This document shows positions 11,305-17,557 of a stretch of DNA of 64,000 nt, one piece after another. The translations under genes were made by a program, and so were the position numbers. Position 1 is the first letter of the stretch. The number at the start of each line of letters is the position of its first letter. The stretch comes from Geminicoccus roseus DSM 18922 (lineage in GTDB: Bacteria; Pseudomonadota; Alphaproteobacteria; Geminicoccales; Geminicoccaceae): positions 248,001-312,000 of the forward strand of contig NZ_KE386572.1 of assembly GCF_000427665.1 (NCBI RefSeq), read 5' to 3'. The notes under the pieces are model-generated. The model did no database searches and had not been told where the DNA came from. It worked only from the letters and a program-made list of their open reading frames with translations.

Positions 11305-12072
11305 ATGGAGCGACAGCGAGGTAGCTACTCCCGCCCCATCCCGCGGGACGATCCAGTGTCGCAAGCCACACCTTCCGTCCACCGCAACGGCCTTCTGAGC
11401 GCCCTGTCCGCCGAGGACATCGACTATCTGCAGCCGCGGCTCTGCCGGGTCGACCTGCCCCTGCGCACGGTGCTCCACCTTCCCCAGGAGCCGATCCCGG
11501 CGGTGCACTTCATCGAGAGCGGCTGGATCTCGCTGGTGATCACCCTGGACGACGGCAACGTCTCCGAGGTGGGGCTGGTGGGGTCGGAAGGCATGGCCGG
11601 GCTGCCGCTGTTGTTCGGCACCGATCGCTCCACCGCCGAGGCGATGGTCCAGGCCGAGCACACCAGCGCCCTGCGCATGGACGCCCATGATTTCCGCGAC
11701 GCGCTGGATGCCTGCCCGTCCTTGCGCCGGACGCTGCTGCGCTACGGCCAGGCCTGCTTCACCCAGGTCAGCCAGACCGCCGCCTGCAACAACCACCACC
11801 AGACCGAGCAGCGCCTGGCGCGCTGGCTTCTGACCGCCCATGACCGCGCCAGCGGCGACCAGTTCATGATGACCCACGAGCTCCTCGCCATCATGCTGGG
11901 GGTGCGCCGGGCCAGCGTCAGCCTCGCCGCCGGCATGCTGCAGAAGGCGGACCTGATCCGCTATGGCAGCGGGCAGATCACCATCCTCGACCGCCACGGC
12001 CTGGAGGCGGCGGCCTGCGAGTGCCATGGCGTGGTCTGCCGCGAATTCAGGCGCCTACTCGGACACGCTTAA
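11305..12072 (+). CDS. Crp/Fnr-family transcriptional regulator
   Basis: 255 residues from the ATG at 11305; a GTG at 11356 is an alternative start just before the conserved part. Residues about 30-150 form the cyclic-nucleotide-binding-like beta barrel (IPAVHFIESGWISLVITLDD, VGLVGSEGMAGLPLLFG). The C-terminal winged helix includes MMTHELLAIMLGVRRASVSL. There is no N-terminal cysteine cluster, so it is not an oxygen-sensing FNR; the ligand is unknown. It resembles the many alphaproteobacterial Crp/Fnr paralogues. Cys residues occur only near the C-terminal end (ACECHGVVC). Confidence 0.88.
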   Translation: MERQRGSYSRPIPRDDPVSQATPSVHRNGLLSALSAEDIDYLQPRLCRVDLPLRTVLHLPQEPIPAVHFIESGWISLVITLDDGNVSEVGLVGSEGMAGLPLLFGTDRSTAEAMVQAEHTSALRMDAHDFRDALDACPSLRRTLLRYGQACFTQVSQTAACNNHHQTEQRLARWLLTAHDRASGDQFMMTHELLAIMLGVRRASVSLAAGMLQKADLIRYGSGQITILDRHGLEAAACECHGVVCREFRRLLGHA

Positions 12073-12164
12073 GAAAAGTGAGCGCGCTGCTTCCCGGTTG
12101 TACGCTATCGGACTGATTTCCCGGCCGGGGCTGACCATTCTCCTCCGACGCGTGAGAGGTCGAG

Positions 12165-12455
12165 ATGATGCCACTGCGCCAAGAATGCCCGCAGCCTGCC
12201 GATCGGCAGCAACGCCGCCGAGCCGAGATGCGGCCGGCCGACAGCCGGACGGAGACCGGCGCGCCACGCACCGACGAGCGGGCGCGGCAGATGGCCGAGA
12301 TGGAAGCCCTGATCGTGGAATCGACCGAGATCGTGTCCCGCACGCGGGCGCTCGTGCAGCGCCTGCGCCATGCCGGCGCGTTCTCCCCGCCCGGCACGAC
12401 GGAGCCCCCCCGAGGACCGACCCCATGGGCAAGCTGGACACCGATGAAACCCTAG
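12165..12455 (+). CDS. Small hypothetical protein overlapping the next gene
   Basis: 96 residues. An AGAGG Shine-Dalgarno sequence sits five bases before the ATG-ATG start, and third codon positions are almost all G or C, so it looks coding. Residues 40-70 (ARQMAEMEALIVESTEIVSR) would form an amphipathic helix. The last 10 codons overlap the start of the next gene in another frame, suggesting translational coupling. No family is recognised. Confidence 0.5.
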   Translation: MMPLRQECPQPADRQQRRRAEMRPADSRTETGAPRTDERARQMAEMEALIVESTEIVSRTRALVQRLRHAGAFSPPGTTEPPRGPTPWASWTPMKP

Positions 12456-12625
12456 TTCTCCTGGACCGCACGCCCACGCAGCGGGACCAGGACCTGATCC
12501 GGCGGGTTGCCCTGGCCCTGGAACGCGGCGACGAGCGGGCGAGGCTGCTGCGGCAGACGATCCGGCGCTTTGCCCGCTACAGCAGCTACCGCAACATCGA
12601 GACCGGGCCGCGGGGCCGGAAGTGA
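12425..12625 (+). CDS. Small protein, member A of a four-member local family
   Basis: 66 residues, with a GAGG motif about ten bases before the ATG. The core TQRDQDLIRRVALALERGDE followed by ARLLRQTIRRF aligns with three other small proteins nearby (16015-16254, 16272-16508, 16674-16898), which share D-x-[DE]-L-[IV]-R-R-V-A-x2-L, then D and L-R-x2-I. This copy lacks the N-terminal strand seen in the others. The predicted helix-loop-helix could be a dimerisation or DNA-binding unit. It converges on the TRAP transporter operon. Function unknown. Confidence 0.65.
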   Translation: MGKLDTDETLVLLDRTPTQRDQDLIRRVALALERGDERARLLRQTIRRFARYSSYRNIETGPRGRK

Positions 12626-12647
12626 CCGGCGCCTGGCCGCTTCAAGC

Positions 12648-13919
12648 TCAGTCCATGCGGGACGGCAGCCAGGTGGCGATGCCCGGGAAGAAGATGATCG
12701 CGAGCACGATGGCGATCAGCGCCAGCACGAACGGCATCACCGCGACGGTGCCCTGGACCAGGTTGCAGCGGGCGATGCCGCAGGTGACGAACAGGCTGGC
12801 GCCGACCGGCGGGGTGACCAGGCCCACCGCCAGGCCGACCACGGTGACGATGCCGAACTGGATCGGGTCGATCTGCAGGGACTGGGTGACCGGCCACAGC
12901 ACCGGGACCAGGATGATGATGCTGGCGCCCAGGTCCAGCAGCATGCCGGCGACCAGGTAGACCGCGAAGATCAGCAGGAGAACGAAGGTCGGGTCGCTGG
13001 TCAGCGCCAGGATCAGCCGGGCGGCCTCCTGGGGGATCTGCTCGCGGGTGATGATCAGGCCGTAGAGCGAGGCGGCGGCGATCATCAGCATGACCACGCC
13101 GGTGGTGACGCAGGATTCCAGGACGATCTGCGGCAGGTCGGCCAGGCGGATGGTGCGATACACGAACATGCCGACCAGCAGGCCATAGACCACCGCCACC
13201 ACCGAGGCCTCGGTGGGGGTGGCGATGCCGTAGCGGATCGAGCCGATGATCACGAGCGGCATCATCAGCCCCCAGAAGCTGGCGCGCGCCGCTGCGAGGA
13301 TCTGCCGGGGGGAGGTGCGGGGCCCGCGCGGATAGCCGCGCAGCACCGAGATCGCCCAGGCGGTGAGCATCAGGGCGGCGGCGATCAGCAGACCCGGGAT
13401 GAGGCCGGCCACGAACAGCTTGCTGACCGAGACGCCGGTGACCACGCAGAAGATGATCATCGGGATCGAGGGCGGGATCACCACCGAGATGGTGGAGGCG
13501 GCGGCGGTGACCGCGGCGCAGAAGGCGCCATCATAGCCCTTCTCCTTCATCGGCGGGATCATGATCCCGCCGGCCGAGGACGCCTCGGCCACCGCCGAGC
13601 CGGTCATCCCGCCCATCAGCGTGCCAGCGCCGATCCCGGCCTGGGCCAGGCCGCCGCGCGCCCAGCCGATCGCCGCGTTGGCGAAGTCGATGATGTCCCG
13701 GGCGATGCCGCTCCTGGCCATCAGGTGGCCGGCCAAAAGGAAGAACGGCACCGCCAGCAGGATGAAGGAGTCCATGGCGGCGGTCATCCGCTGGGCGACC
13801 AGGGCCGCCGGGATGCCGCCATAGGTGATCGCCAGGAAGGAGGCGATCGCGAGCGCGAACGAGACCGGCATGTTGATCAGCAAGAGGACGACGAATCCCA
13901 CCAGCAGGGTGGCGGTCAT
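12648..13919 (-). CDS. dctM: TRAP transporter large permease (DctM type)
   Basis: 423 residues, about twelve hydrophobic helices, matching the DctM/TRAP-M family: VPFFLLAGHLMARSGIA, GGMTGSAVAEASSAGGIMIP, and VGLVTPPVGASLFVTCGIA near the end. It forms the transport channel of a Na+-driven periplasmic-binding-protein-dependent importer of organic anions. Its start overlaps the small-permease stop by four bases (ATGA), so the two are coupled. The gene order binding protein, small permease, large permease is standard. Confidence 0.95.
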   Translation of the reverse strand: MTATLLVGFVVLLLINMPVSFALAIASFLAITYGGIPAALVAQRMTAAMDSFILLAVPFFLLAGHLMARSGIARDIIDFANAAIGWARGGLAQAGIGAGTLMGGMTGSAVAEASSAGGIMIPPMKEKGYDGAFCAAVTAAASTISVVIPPSIPMIIFCVVTGVSVSKLFVAGLIPGLLIAAALMLTAWAISVLRGYPRGPRTSPRQILAAARASFWGLMMPLVIIGSIRYGIATPTEASVVAVVYGLLVGMFVYRTIRLADLPQIVLESCVTTGVVMLMIAAASLYGLIITREQIPQEAARLILALTSDPTFVLLLIFAVYLVAGMLLDLGASIIILVPVLWPVTQSLQIDPIQFGIVTVVGLAVGLVTPPVGASLFVTCGIARCNLVQGTVAVMPFVLALIAIVLAIIFFPGIATWLPSRMD

Positions 13920-14413
13920 GACGGCTGCACCTCACGGACGGGGTCTGGGGCGAGCGGGCCTCGGGACAGCCGGCCGACCAGGATGTCGCCGGCGATCAGC
14001 AGGGCCATGGCGCTGTAGCCGGCATAGACCCAGACCATCGGCAGGCCGAGCGTGGCCGAGGGCTGGCCGCTGGTCAGCCGGAGCAGGCCCAGATTGGTGT
14101 AGAAGGTGTAGGCGCAGAACAGGAACACGCCCAGATCGACCAGGGCCGCGGAGATCCGCTCCAGGACCGGGTTGCCCAGGTAGTGGACGATGTCGACCGC
14201 GACATGGGCGCGGTGCTTCCAGGCCAGCCAGGCCGACAGATAGGCCACCCAGACGAACAGGTAGCGGGCGGCCTCCTCCGACCAGACGATCGGGTCGTCC
14301 AGCAGGTAGCGCCAGCCGACCTGGGCCAGGCACATCACGGTCATCGCCAGGATGCAGAGGACCAGGGCCACCTCGGTCGTCCATTCGACCAGGCCCCACA
14401 GGCGTCGGATCAT
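13916..14413 (-). CDS. dctQ: TRAP transporter small permease (DctQ type)
   Basis: 165 residues with four hydrophobic helices, as in DctQ/TRAP-Q. Conserved features are VGWRYLLDDPIVWSEEAARY and WKHRAHVAVD, the latter following the second helix. The ATG at 14411-14413 has GGAGAG nine bases upstream; an in-frame start 18 codons earlier lacks one. It partners the large permease with which it overlaps. A strong hairpin separates it from the binding-protein gene. Confidence 0.93.
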   Translation of the reverse strand: MIRRLWGLVEWTTEVALVLCILAMTVMCLAQVGWRYLLDDPIVWSEEAARYLFVWVAYLSAWLAWKHRAHVAVDIVHYLGNPVLERISAALVDLGVFLFCAYTFYTNLGLLRLTSGQPSATLGLPMVWVYAGYSAMALLIAGDILVGRLSRGPLAPDPVREVQPS

Positions 14414-14445
14414 CGGTCGGGCTCTCCTGCGGGCGGAACGGCCAA

Positions 14446-14490
14446 GGGGGAGCGGCCGAAACGGCACGAAGCCGCCCCGGCCGCTCCCCC
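14446..14490 (-). terminator. Strong intergenic hairpin between TRAP binding-protein and permease genes
   Basis: GGGGGAGCGGCC (14446-14457) is perfectly complementary to 14479-14490, a 12-bp GC-rich stem; inside, CGGC (14462-14465) pairs with GCCG (14471-14474). No T-run follows, so it is more likely an RNA-stabilising or attenuating stem-loop that lets the binding protein be made in excess of the permeases. Confidence 0.6.
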
Positions 14491-14503
14491 GGCTCGCCTG
14501 AGG

Positions 14504-15475
14504 TCAGTCGGCGGAGGCGGCGGCCTTGACCTTCTCGATCATGGCCGGGTCCAGCCCGTCCACCGAGCCGGCGATGTCGGCGGTGGCGTCGCGGAACGGC
14601 GCCAGGTCGACCTCCTCGATCACCATGCCCTTCTCGACCAGCAGGCCGCGATACTCGGCGTCCAGCTTCGCCGAGGTCGCGCGCGCGGTCGCGGTGCACT
14701 CGGTGACCGATTCCTGCACGATGGCCTGCTGCTCGGGCGTGAGCGTCTGCCAGATCGCCTTGGAGAACAGCACGGCATGCGGGCCATAGACATGGCCGGT
14801 CAGCATGACGTGGCTCTGCACCTCCCAGAGCGAGTTGGAATAGATCACCGTGATCGGGTTCTCCTGGGCGTCGATGATCCCCTGGCCCAGGCTGGTGAAC
14901 ACCTCGCCCCAGACCATCGGGATCGGGGCGGCGCCCAGCTTCTCGAAGGCGGCGATGTGCACCGGGTTCTGCATGGTGCGCAGCTTGACGCCCTGCAGGT
15001 CGGCCGGGGCCTCCACCGCCTTCTTGGCGGTCAGGTGACGCCAGCCGTTCTCCCACCAGGCCAGGCCGACAATGCCCTGGGCGTCGAACTTCTCCAGCAG
15101 CTCCTGGCCGACCTCGCCGTCCAGGACCCGGTAGACATGGTCGGAGTCCTCGAAGATGAACGGCAGGTCGAGCACGCCGACCTCGGGCACGAAGGCGCCG
15201 AGCGGGCCGGTGGAGACCACGGTCATGTCGACCGAGCCGATCTGCAGCCCCTCGACGGTCTCGCGCTCCTCGCCGAGCTGGCGGTCGGGATAGAGCTCCA
15301 CCGCGAGCTCGCCGCCGCTGCGCTCCTCGGCCAGCTTCTCGAAGCATTCCAGGGCGACATAGCTTGGATGGACCGGCTGCGAGCCGAACGCGGCGCGGAT
15401 GGTGGTCTGCGCCTGGGCCTGCAGCGGCGCCAGGAGTGCAGCCAGCGCCAGGGTGCTGGTCAGGGCGTGCTTCAT
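14504..15475 (-). CDS. dctP: TRAP transporter periplasmic solute-binding protein (DctP type)
   Basis: 323 residues from the ATG at 15473-15475. A Sec signal peptide (LALAALLAPLQAQAQ) covers the first ~23 residues. The mature protein has the DctP pattern: VELYPDRQLGEERE, LDLPFIFEDSDHVYRVLDG, and GVKLRTMQNPVHIAAFEKLG, whose Arg usually binds the ligand carboxylate. SLGQGIIDAQENP is also conserved. It delivers a carboxylic acid, or related anion, to the adjacent permeases. The substrate cannot be deduced. First gene of its operon. Confidence 0.93.
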   Translation of the reverse strand: MKHALTSTLALAALLAPLQAQAQTTIRAAFGSQPVHPSYVALECFEKLAEERSGGELAVELYPDRQLGEERETVEGLQIGSVDMTVVSTGPLGAFVPEVGVLDLPFIFEDSDHVYRVLDGEVGQELLEKFDAQGIVGLAWWENGWRHLTAKKAVEAPADLQGVKLRTMQNPVHIAAFEKLGAAPIPMVWGEVFTSLGQGIIDAQENPITVIYSNSLWEVQSHVMLTGHVYGPHAVLFSKAIWQTLTPEQQAIVQESVTECTATARATSAKLDAEYRGLLVEKGMVIEEVDLAPFRDATADIAGSVDGLDPAMIEKVKAAASAD

Positions 15476-16014
15476 CGTCTTGTTCCTCCCGATCCGATCA
15501 TGGCGACCTCGCCGGCCGGCCTTGTCAAGGGCGCCGGCGGCGGTGCCTGCCGGAGCCGCCACCGGGCCGGGCGCTCCCCCCCGAGGGCGCCCGACCGCCT
15601 GCGCGGGCCAACCGGCCCCGATGGCATGACAGGTCTATAGGATGATGGTCGCACGGGTCAATCGAGCGGCGCGGGCGGGCCGGCGGGCCGCCGCACCGGT
15701 CCGCGCCGGCTTCCGATTCGCGACACGATCCGGTCCGAAAGAAATCAAGTCGCTGGTGACCTGTTTTGTGTCATTTCCAGCAATCGACTCGTATATATCC
15801 GATGCTTCCCTGATAGACCTTTCTGGATTCGCTTGAGACATCCACAGGTCGATTTTGCCGGTCACAGAAATGGCGTCTCGATGAACCGGGATTTTTGTTT
15901 AAGAAAAATTGAGAATGTTCCGTCTCGACTTTTACGTCTTGGCGCGGTAGGCCGGTTCTATAATGAACTTGATCGATATCCTTGATGCCCTGGCGATAAG
16001 CGGGAGCGGCCATA
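15476..16014. other. Intergenic region, TRAP operon / small protein B
   Basis: 539 bases without a gene; GC falls markedly from about 15720 to 15990. A perfect -10-like TATAAT at 15959-15964 is 50 bases before the small-protein start; the best -35 (TCTTGG, 16-base spacing) is poor. ATTTTT/AAAAAT (around 15890-15910) could form a weak AT hairpin. The TRAP operon promoter should also be here but was not recognised. Confidence 0.4.
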
Positions 16015-16254
16015 ATGAAAGAGGCATTGCGCGCGCATCGGCAGATGCTGCGGGAGAACGGGCTGAAGCGGGTTGAGGTGCTGGTGCCGCATCCGGACGC
16101 CGAGCTGGTGCGCCGGGTCGCCAAGGCGCTGACCACCAAGGACCCGACCTCGGACGTGCTGCGGGCGACCATCGAGAAGGCGGTGCCGGTGCGCAACCGC
16201 CTGAGCTTCAAGGAATGGCTGGCGACGCCGGAAGAGGACGACGCCAACGCGTGA
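16015..16254 (+). CDS. Small protein, member B of the local family (ribbon-helix-helix-like)
   Basis: 79 residues, with GGGAG ahead of the ATG. Order: helical AHRQMLRENG, a strand KRVEVLVP, helix DAELVRRVAKAL, helix VLRATIEKAV, then SFKEWLA and an acidic tail. Strand-helix-helix suits a ribbon-helix-helix DNA-binding fold such as those of CopG/MazE-like antitoxins, but this is inference. It is collinear with the convergent gene at 16272-16508 over its full length; only 17 bases separate their stops. No toxin gene is adjacent. Confidence 0.75.
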   Translation: MKEALRAHRQMLRENGLKRVEVLVPHPDAELVRRVAKALTTKDPTSDVLRATIEKAVPVRNRLSFKEWLATPEEDDANA

Positions 16255-16271
16255 GGACGGCGCCGCAGGGG

Positions 16272-16508
16272 CTACTCGTCCGGGCGCTCGGCCTCCTCGG
16301 CCAGCCATTCACGAAACGTTGCGGGGCGGGTTTCCGGCGTCGCCTTGGCCAGGACATCGCGCAGACGGGCCGCCGCCTCGTCGTTCTTGTCCAGGATCCG
16401 CGCCACCCGGCGCAGCAACTCGGCATCCGACGGCGAGGCGATCACCTCGACGCGCTTGCAGCCCCGCTCCGCCATGCGCCGCCGGTGGTCCTGGACAGCT
16501 CCTGGCAT
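16272..16508 (-). CDS. Small protein, member C of the local family (ribbon-helix-helix-like)
   Basis: 78 residues. KRVEVIASPSDAELLRRVAR and ARLRDVLAKA match KRVEVLVPHPDAELVRRVAK and VLRATIEKA of the convergent neighbour, and TFREWLAEE matches SFKEWLATP, so B and C are full-length paralogues placed tail to tail. GAGGATC precedes the ATG. A small dyad, TGCCT-gcg-AGGCA (16528-16540), lies 20 bases upstream and could be an operator. Function unknown; an orphan antitoxin-like DNA-binding protein is one possibility. Confidence 0.75.
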   Translation of the reverse strand: MPGAVQDHRRRMAERGCKRVEVIASPSDAELLRRVARILDKNDEAAARLRDVLAKATPETRPATFREWLAEEAERPDE

Positions 16509-16638
16509 GGACGATCCTCACATTCCTTGCCTGCGAGGCATCCCAAATAAGCCGGGCGCGCCTCCGGGTCCAGAACAGGATTGTCGCGAACGGCCACCGG
16601 CACCTGCGTGCAGCCGGTGGGGCAACCCGAAAAGGATG

Positions 16639-16664
16639 CCTCCGGACGGTGCGTCGTCCGGAGG
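16639..16664 (-). terminator. Rho-independent terminator of small-protein gene D
   Basis: CCTCCGGACG (16639-16648) and CGTCCGGAGG (16655-16664) form a perfect 10-bp stem with a 6-base loop. On the minus strand it starts 10 bases beyond the gene D stop and is followed by CATCCTTTTC, a short T-run. Confidence 0.75.
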
Positions 16665-16673
16665 GGGCCCTAT

Positions 16674-16898
16674 TCAGTGGCGGGTGGTCTGGGACGGCAG
16701 TTCGTCGGCCGGCTCGGCCTGGCGCGCCAGGATGTCCTCGATCTCAGCCCGCAGCCGGCCCGCAGCCGCGTCGTTGGTCAACAGCATCTGGGCGAGCAAC
16801 TGGATGTGCTCGTAGTCCTCGTCCCGGACCCAGACTTCGGTCCGCTCCAGCTCCGCCGCGGCGGGCGGAATCTGGAGGTACAGGCGGTCGTTCTGCAT
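16674..16898 (-). CDS. Small protein, member D of the local family
   Basis: 74 residues from the ATG at 16896-16898 (a start 16 codons earlier would run through the operator-like repeat). ERTEVWVRDEDYEHIQLLAQ followed by RLRAEIEDIL aligns with KRVEVLVPHPDAELVRRVAK and VLRATIEKA of member B: the strand-helix-helix layout is kept although the RR pair is lost. It is a one-gene unit with its own terminator downstream and a large palindromic site upstream, which fits an autoregulated small DNA-binding protein. Confidence 0.7.
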   Translation of the reverse strand: MQNDRLYLQIPPAAAELERTEVWVRDEDYEHIQLLAQMLLTNDAAAGRLRAEIEDILARQAEPADELPSQTTRH

Positions 16899-16923
16899 GG
16901 CCCTAACACTCCGGTGATGCACG

Positions 16924-16956
16924 CACGTGTTCATGGGATGAACCAATCATCACGTG
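16924..16956 (-). promoter_or_regulatory. Operator-like palindrome before small-protein gene D
   Basis: A perfect dyad, GTTCAT-GGG-ATGAAC (16929-16943), is flanked by two copies of the palindrome CACGTG (16924-16929 and 16951-16956). It lies 26-58 bases upstream of the gene D start, where a repressor would block transcription. Such nested symmetry is unlikely by chance and is what ribbon-helix-helix autoregulators bind. Confidence 0.6.
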
Positions 16957-17557
16957 GTGAAAACGGTCCTTGGTGCCGCAGGTCCAGGATCAGACGCAAG
17001 ATTGCGCGGGGCACCCCGCAACCCGTCCCGATACTGTCTGGATATTATCTACATCTTTCCCAGTGGTCCTGGGTAACGCGAGGCGGCTACACCAATCACA
17101 GGAGGCAGCACTTGTACCAGCCGGCTTGGTCTACCGTCTTTTCTCCGGATATAGGAACGTAAAGCCCTGTATAAAATTATGGCAATATTTAATGCGCAGG
17201 TACATTTCGGCAAAATGTCTAAAGTTTCAGGAATACCCTCGCAGCCTTAGCACAGGAGTCCTGTCCTTCATTCAAGGACCATTCACCAAGCCCATTCGCC
17301 ACAAGTCGCGCTTTCCGCTTGACCTCGCCAGATCCTGTGTCGCCAGCCGGGCGCCCTCCCCCCCGGACCGCCCTAATCGGCCATCCGGCAGGCCGGATCG
17401 TCCGGGAAATCGCGCCTTCGGGAAATTGTCGCCTGGGAAGTGCCACGCGTCGGGAAAGTTCTCCATAGAAGCGAAGCAGTCCGGCCGGCACCATGGCGGC
17501 GGTCGCGCAGAGAAGTTCGAGAAGAAGGCCAGGCGACCGACGGGCGACGGGCGCTCC
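16957..17557. other. Gene-free, AT-richer stretch
   Basis: 600 bases with no credible gene. From about 17030 to 17290 it is clearly richer in A and T than the rest of the window. One perfect dyad, ACATTT-N5-AAATGT, lies at 17202-17218. It may be the scar of accessory DNA next to the small-protein cluster; nothing else was recognised. Confidence 0.45.

Follow-up and report, generated by a model that had tools for sequence, protein, structure and literature searches.

Four small genes around a TRAP operon

The DNA studied here, referred to below as the window, is a stretch of 64,000 nucleotides from Geminicoccus roseus DSM 18922 (contig NZ_KE386572.1, positions 248,001 to 312,000), in which four small genes, P1 to P4, surround a TRAP transporter operon (Table 1). 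A preliminary description made from the sequence alone had presented them as related, antitoxin-like proteins with no toxin beside them, and shuffle tests bear out the relationship for all pairs but one. Local alignment of P2 with P3 gives a score of 146, compared with a maximum of 60 among shuffled sequences; P2-P4 (61) and P1-P3 (59) also exceed their shuffle maxima of 46 and 49, respectively, and the scores of P3-P4 (63) and P1-P2 (57) were each equalled in 1 of 1,000 shuffles. For P1 and P4, the pairwise similarity was not significant against shuffled controls. A profile built from six long copies of the family only, with P1 and P4 left out (profile A1), retrieved P4 at an E value of 2e-5 and P1 at 6e-4 in a whole-genome search, and both have the central strand-helix-helix block.

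As described, P2 and P3 are full-length paralogues arranged tail to tail, with stop codons 17 bases apart; the dN between them is 0.6. The predicted layout of P2 is an N-terminal helix, the strand KRVEVLV, the helix DAELVRRVAKAL, the helix VLRATIEKA, and a C-terminal FKEWL motif. The codon-position GC of all four genes is typical for genes in this genome (GC3 of 0.86 to 0.92). An "AT-richer island" had been noted as well, which is true of two intergenic stretches (15751-16000, with 46% GC, and 17001-17250, with 50% GC) but not of the genes themselves, which have 68 to 71% GC in a window of 70%.

Table 1. Family members and neighboring features in the window
Feature	Positions	Strand	Length	Remarks
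P1	12425-12625	+	66 aa	Weakest relative; has neither FxEWL nor a terminal histidine
P2	16015-16254	+	79 aa	Long orphan antitoxin-like protein; family profile E 7e-36
P3	16272-16508	-	78 aa	Long orphan paralogue of P2; C-terminal FREWL motif
P4	16674-16898	-	74 aa	Short-class relative; ends in TRH
TRAP transporter operon (DctM, DctQ, DctP)	12648-15475	-		DctM 2e-115, DctP 4e-88; DctQ (middle ORF) assigned from position and length only; neighbor, apparently not part of the system
Crp/Fnr-type regulator	11305-12072	+		cNMP_binding + HTH_Crp_2; context of P1

Distribution of the family

The 5.7-Mb genome contains nine copies, six of a long and three of a short class. Five of the nine lie outside the window, four long ones at 1.605, 2.844, 4.098, and 4.414 Mb and a short one at 4.314 Mb, so the expansion is not a local one as had been supposed. 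In Geminicoccus flavidas CPCC 101082, the sole congeneric genome compared, there are four long and seven short copies without a toxin gene, which we call orphans, plus one toxin-linked member. Profile searches of about 400 further alphaproteobacterial genomes recognized no orphan of either class; the matches there were of the toxin-linked kind apart from one or two marginal ones inside long frames, and a scan of genome contigs with the long-class tail yielded no relatives. Among the genomes searched, the spread of the orphan family is limited to the genus Geminicoccus. Tandem arrangements of a short orphan with a long one, or with a second short one, occur in G. flavidas (locus L043, 1127-1351 and 1504-1719; loci L052 and L059 on contig C1094). 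At the site in this genome that is syntenic to G. flavidas contig C1142, the short orphan is absent.

Relatives linked to VapC toxin genes

Outside Geminicoccus, matches to the profile from six long orphans cover model positions 2 to 60 only. A PIN/VapC gene is the next gene downstream of the relative in 32 of 33 whole-genome loci, the exception (L085) being a marginal match, and in 79 of 80 loci of named genomes (L114 to L193; for example, L114:1501-1797). In 74 of the 80 named-genome loci, the antitoxin and PIN genes overlap by 4 nucleotides at stop and start codons, and Pfam confirmed the PIN domain in four downstream genes (E values of 3e-11 to 9e-16). When the six long orphans were compared, profile against profile, with 15 toxin-linked proteins, the E value was 1.6e-14 over 61 columns, and a profile of the short class only independently led to the long orphans as well as to the VapC-linked proteins. 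By this homology, the antitoxin-like character attributed to the four genes is upheld.

The VapC-linked relatives have 99 aa, with C-terminal ALRRSPLVGA and GRKVDL motifs. They occur in 54 plasmid records, 25 of which are predicted to be conjugative, and are common on rhizobial and agrobacterial plasmids; a complete antitoxin-VapC pair is present in G. flavidas (L050/L114). Because no family model in Pfam, NCBIfam, PADLOC, or PHROG matches the toxin-linked proteins and the plasmid-borne copies are mostly annotated "hypothetical protein," these relatives, judged from their sequences and gene order, are an uncurated VapB-type antitoxin family. Like the VapB antitoxins of VapBC type II systems, in which the toxin is a PIN protein, the orphans have a homologous segment of about 60 residues at the N terminus (helix, strand, helix, helix); unlike them, they have a C-terminal part of another kind, and no PIN gene adjoins them.

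Missing toxin and replaced C-terminal tail

No PIN gene was found near the orphans even at E values up to 10, in the 64-kb window or in 5- to 11-kb flanks of the other orphans, in agreement with the preliminary description. The genes adjoining the examined copies belong to TRAP, GGDEF/EAL, ABC transporter, cupin, lumazine synthase, RTX protein, SIS domain, response regulator, DUF1622, flavin mononucleotide reductase, and histidine kinase types. Proteins with RTX-type calcium-binding or Gly-Asn repeats adjoin several orphans (L009, 6500-7960; L204; L208). The orphans could be functional antitoxins for an unlinked or unrecognized toxin encoded elsewhere, and the genome does contain eight PIN-domain matches at other places, with neighborhood analysis being blind to unlinked partners. 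However, profile search detected a family member beside none of the eight PIN loci, no toxin-family gene adjoins the copies examined in this genome, and the copies, whose contexts are unrelated, have no neighbor in common, so that we regard such a split system as improbable.

The end of the protein distinguishes orphans from linked relatives. Of the linked proteins, 29 of 31 have an R-x-V-D-L-like C-terminal end, the presumed toxin-binding segment of that family; none of the 20 orphans has one. Instead, F-[KRG]-[ED]-W occurs near the C terminus of all 10 long orphans and of none of the 31 linked proteins; within the long class, F65, E67, W68, and L69 are invariant, and F-x-E-W-L ranks with the best-conserved segments. 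A terminal histidine, often as R-H, is found in 9 of 10 short orphans (P4 and those at L013, L043, L052, L055, L057, L058, L059, and L087) and in no linked protein. Since the codons around this histidine differ among the short orphans, it does not represent one inherited stretch of DNA.

These tails bear on two further explanations. An anti-addiction system, as had been suggested at the outset, would make the orphans working antitoxins that neutralize incoming VapC of plasmids or other mobile DNA and so render the genus immune to such addiction. This role has been proposed for orphan antitoxins but rarely demonstrated (PMC7354431). It would suit the abundance of VapC-linked relatives on rhizobial and agrobacterial plasmids and the complete pair in G. 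flavidas; it is less convincing because the segment presumed to hold the toxin, which is C-terminal in the toxin-linked relatives and has the R-x-V-D-L-like end, is missing from the orphans, and nine copies so divergent that the classes resemble each other at profile level exceed what immunity needs. The proposed role survives as a rather unlikely one. Alternatively, the new tails (FxEWL and terminal RH) may dock a partner protein while the helical core only dimerizes, which would make the proteins adaptors and not DNA binders. The conservation of F-x-E-W-L in the long class, and of the terminal histidine in the short one despite the differing codons, speaks for this explanation. Yet the core is what the orphans share with antitoxins; in type II systems it is as a rule the N-terminal domain of the antitoxin that binds the cognate operator, and a partner-binding tail is also compatible with a regulator; a pure adaptor function is therefore unlikely in our judgment.

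Selection on the orphans

The ratio of nonsynonymous to synonymous substitution rates (dN/dS, by the method of Nei and Gojobori, hence approximate for such short genes) was determined for two orthologue pairs of the two Geminicoccus species, both in conserved gene order and both located elsewhere in the genome than P1 to P4; the values are 0.16 and 0.15. The orphans of these two pairs are under purifying selection. P1 to P4 have no recognized orthologue, and the selection figures cover the two other pairs. As expected of orphan antitoxins, we thus find an intact antitoxin-like gene, selection (in the two pairs elsewhere), and no cognate toxin nearby. That the genes are decaying remnants of toxin-antitoxin operons, as the absence of toxins and the divergence between P2 and P3 might imply, is highly improbable, given intact open reading frames (ORFs), normal codon-position GC, and conserved motifs; with a dN/dS near 0.15, the orphans are not wreckage, and this explanation is largely refuted for the two syntenic pairs.

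Predicted fold

An AlphaFold model of P2, based on 59 sequences, contains a helix at residues 2 to 14, an extended segment at 15 to 25, and helices at 26 to 40 and 44 to 56. The predicted local distance difference test score of the core is about 80 to 91, and the tail is disordered except for a short helix where the FxEWL motif lies. The order of elements corresponds to a ribbon-helix-helix (RHH) monomer with an extra first helix, in line with the layout first proposed for the four proteins. The order and lengths of the elements match strand-helix-helix, and DSSP assigns no strand, which is unsurprising in a monomer that lacks the partner strand. The preliminary description had named a model other than strand-helix-helix, or a lack of significant profile similarity, as grounds for giving up the proposal; the P2 model is compatible with strand-helix-helix, and the profile similarity among the four is significant.

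Searches of known families gave two partial likenesses. The Pfam MazE-like antitoxin family PF11455 (DUF3018) matches five of six members below threshold (best E value of 0.0022; 18.3 bits against a cutoff of 22), and a profile match to three MazE-like proteins (P of 2.7e-5) spans the N-terminal helix and strand. The two share the pattern R-x-x-L-R-x-x-G-L-x-x-V-x-x-V-P in this region, but the orphans fall below the curated cutoff and profile comparison matches nothing past the strand. RHH regulators (Pfam RHH_1/CopG and FitA-type antitoxins) resemble the orphans in the order and spacing of secondary structure, with a weak in-register profile match to RHH_1 proteins (P of 0.002); in the orphans, however, an additional N-terminal helix precedes the strand, and neither sequence comparison nor Foldseek gave a significant match to these regulators. 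KORA/TrfB (Pfam E values of 0.0009 to 0.004) was set aside as sub-threshold and covering only the N-terminal helix and strand. Scans of NCBIfam, PADLOC, and PHROG returned nothing above cutoff, Foldseek searches with two models against PDB and against viral models nothing usable, and sequence searches of solved structures with profiles A1 and A5 only designed helical repeats and unrelated proteins. Judging from the model and the profiles, we think that the orphans probably bind DNA in the RHH manner.

Orphans as probable stand-alone regulators

The explanation that we favor, and to which sequence comparison and the P2 model point with fair likelihood, is that P1 to P4 belong to a Geminicoccus-specific orphan family derived from antitoxins and most likely acting as stand-alone regulators. 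The ancestor would have been a VapB-type antitoxin whose N-terminal 60 or so residues formed the dimerization and DNA-binding domain, probably RHH-like, and whose C-terminal part gripped a PIN/VapC toxin. Freed from its toxin, the antitoxin would have exchanged the toxin-binding tail for short new ones (F-x-E-W-L in long-class copies, a terminal histidine in short-class copies), and the freed gene would have been duplicated around the chromosome. Each copy would now most likely serve as a small dimeric transcription factor that represses itself, a neighboring gene, or both, no toxin being involved. Dimerization, DNA binding, regulation, and the antitoxin-first direction of evolution are steps that we infer. 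Stand-alone regulation is the best explanation because the orphans have kept the region with which type II antitoxins as a rule contact the operator and have lost the region presumed to contact the toxin.

Several results weigh against it. In a tree based on about 60 informative columns, the orphans cannot be assigned a position within the toxin-linked group, so that an antitoxin origin is the likelier direction but not a proven one. The RHH_1 match disappears with the larger profile A6 (P of 0.32), and Foldseek matched no solved RHH structure, although the monomer of a dimeric fold, 79 residues long, makes a poor query. No operator common to the copies was found. In 16924-16956, a stretch that had been singled out, the inverted repeat (GTTCAT-N3-ATGAAC, at 16929) is no better than shuffled sequence, and GTTC-N6-GAAC at 15955, upstream of P2, is likewise not beyond chance; neither is shared by other copies. 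At another locus, CTCCTATA-T-TATAGGAG forms a perfect inverted repeat and is a possible operator; it lies some 85 bp ahead of the start codon of an orphan in G. flavidas (L043, upstream of 1719, contig C1142). One in 100 shuffles was as good, with 19 regions tested.

Chromosomal antitoxins, according to a frequent suggestion, turn into ordinary regulators after toxin loss. The expansion of the family in one genus, with toxin-linked relatives still recognizable, makes it useful material to test that idea. A broader proposition is more tentative, with a little under an even chance of being right in our estimate: that the DNA-binding domain of an antitoxin was turned, within one genus, into a multicopy family of transcription factors that work without a toxin and have gained two C-terminal tails for docking. 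The descent of a gene-regulatory family from a toxin-antitoxin module could then be traced. The work also points to a VapB-type antitoxin family so far without a curated model. Orphan, or solitary, antitoxins are known from Klebsiella, Mycobacterium, and Bartonella (reviewed in PMC7354431), and the Geminicoccus genes resemble them as antitoxin-like genes without their toxin. They differ in that the tail has been replaced and the gene multiplied in one genus, in place of a single survivor of a broken pair.

Genomic context of the window genes

The preliminary description had the four genes surround the TRAP operon, and so they do here, but the arrangement is not conserved on the testable (DctM) side in G. 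flavidas. Next to the orthologous TRAP genes of that species (85% identity at the DNA level), the DctM side has a GST and a GntR/FCD regulator, with no small gene; the DctP side lies beyond the contig end. A fixed link between the small genes and TRAP is not supported by this, and because the visible side of the G. flavidas copy has no small gene, the operon appears to be a bystander.

P1 lies 353 bp downstream of the Crp/Fnr-type regulator gene. A 96-aa ORF (12165-12455, + strand) with the helical segment LIVESTEIVSRTRALVQRLR stands between the two and overlaps P1 by 31 bp; it has no family matches. On G. flavidas contig C164, a short orphan is located about 0.3 kb downstream of a Crp gene, and on contig C777 another is upstream of a further Crp-like gene. 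Crp/Fnr-type genes thus adjoin short orphans once here (P1; window positions 11305-12625) and twice in G. flavidas (L206 and L207).

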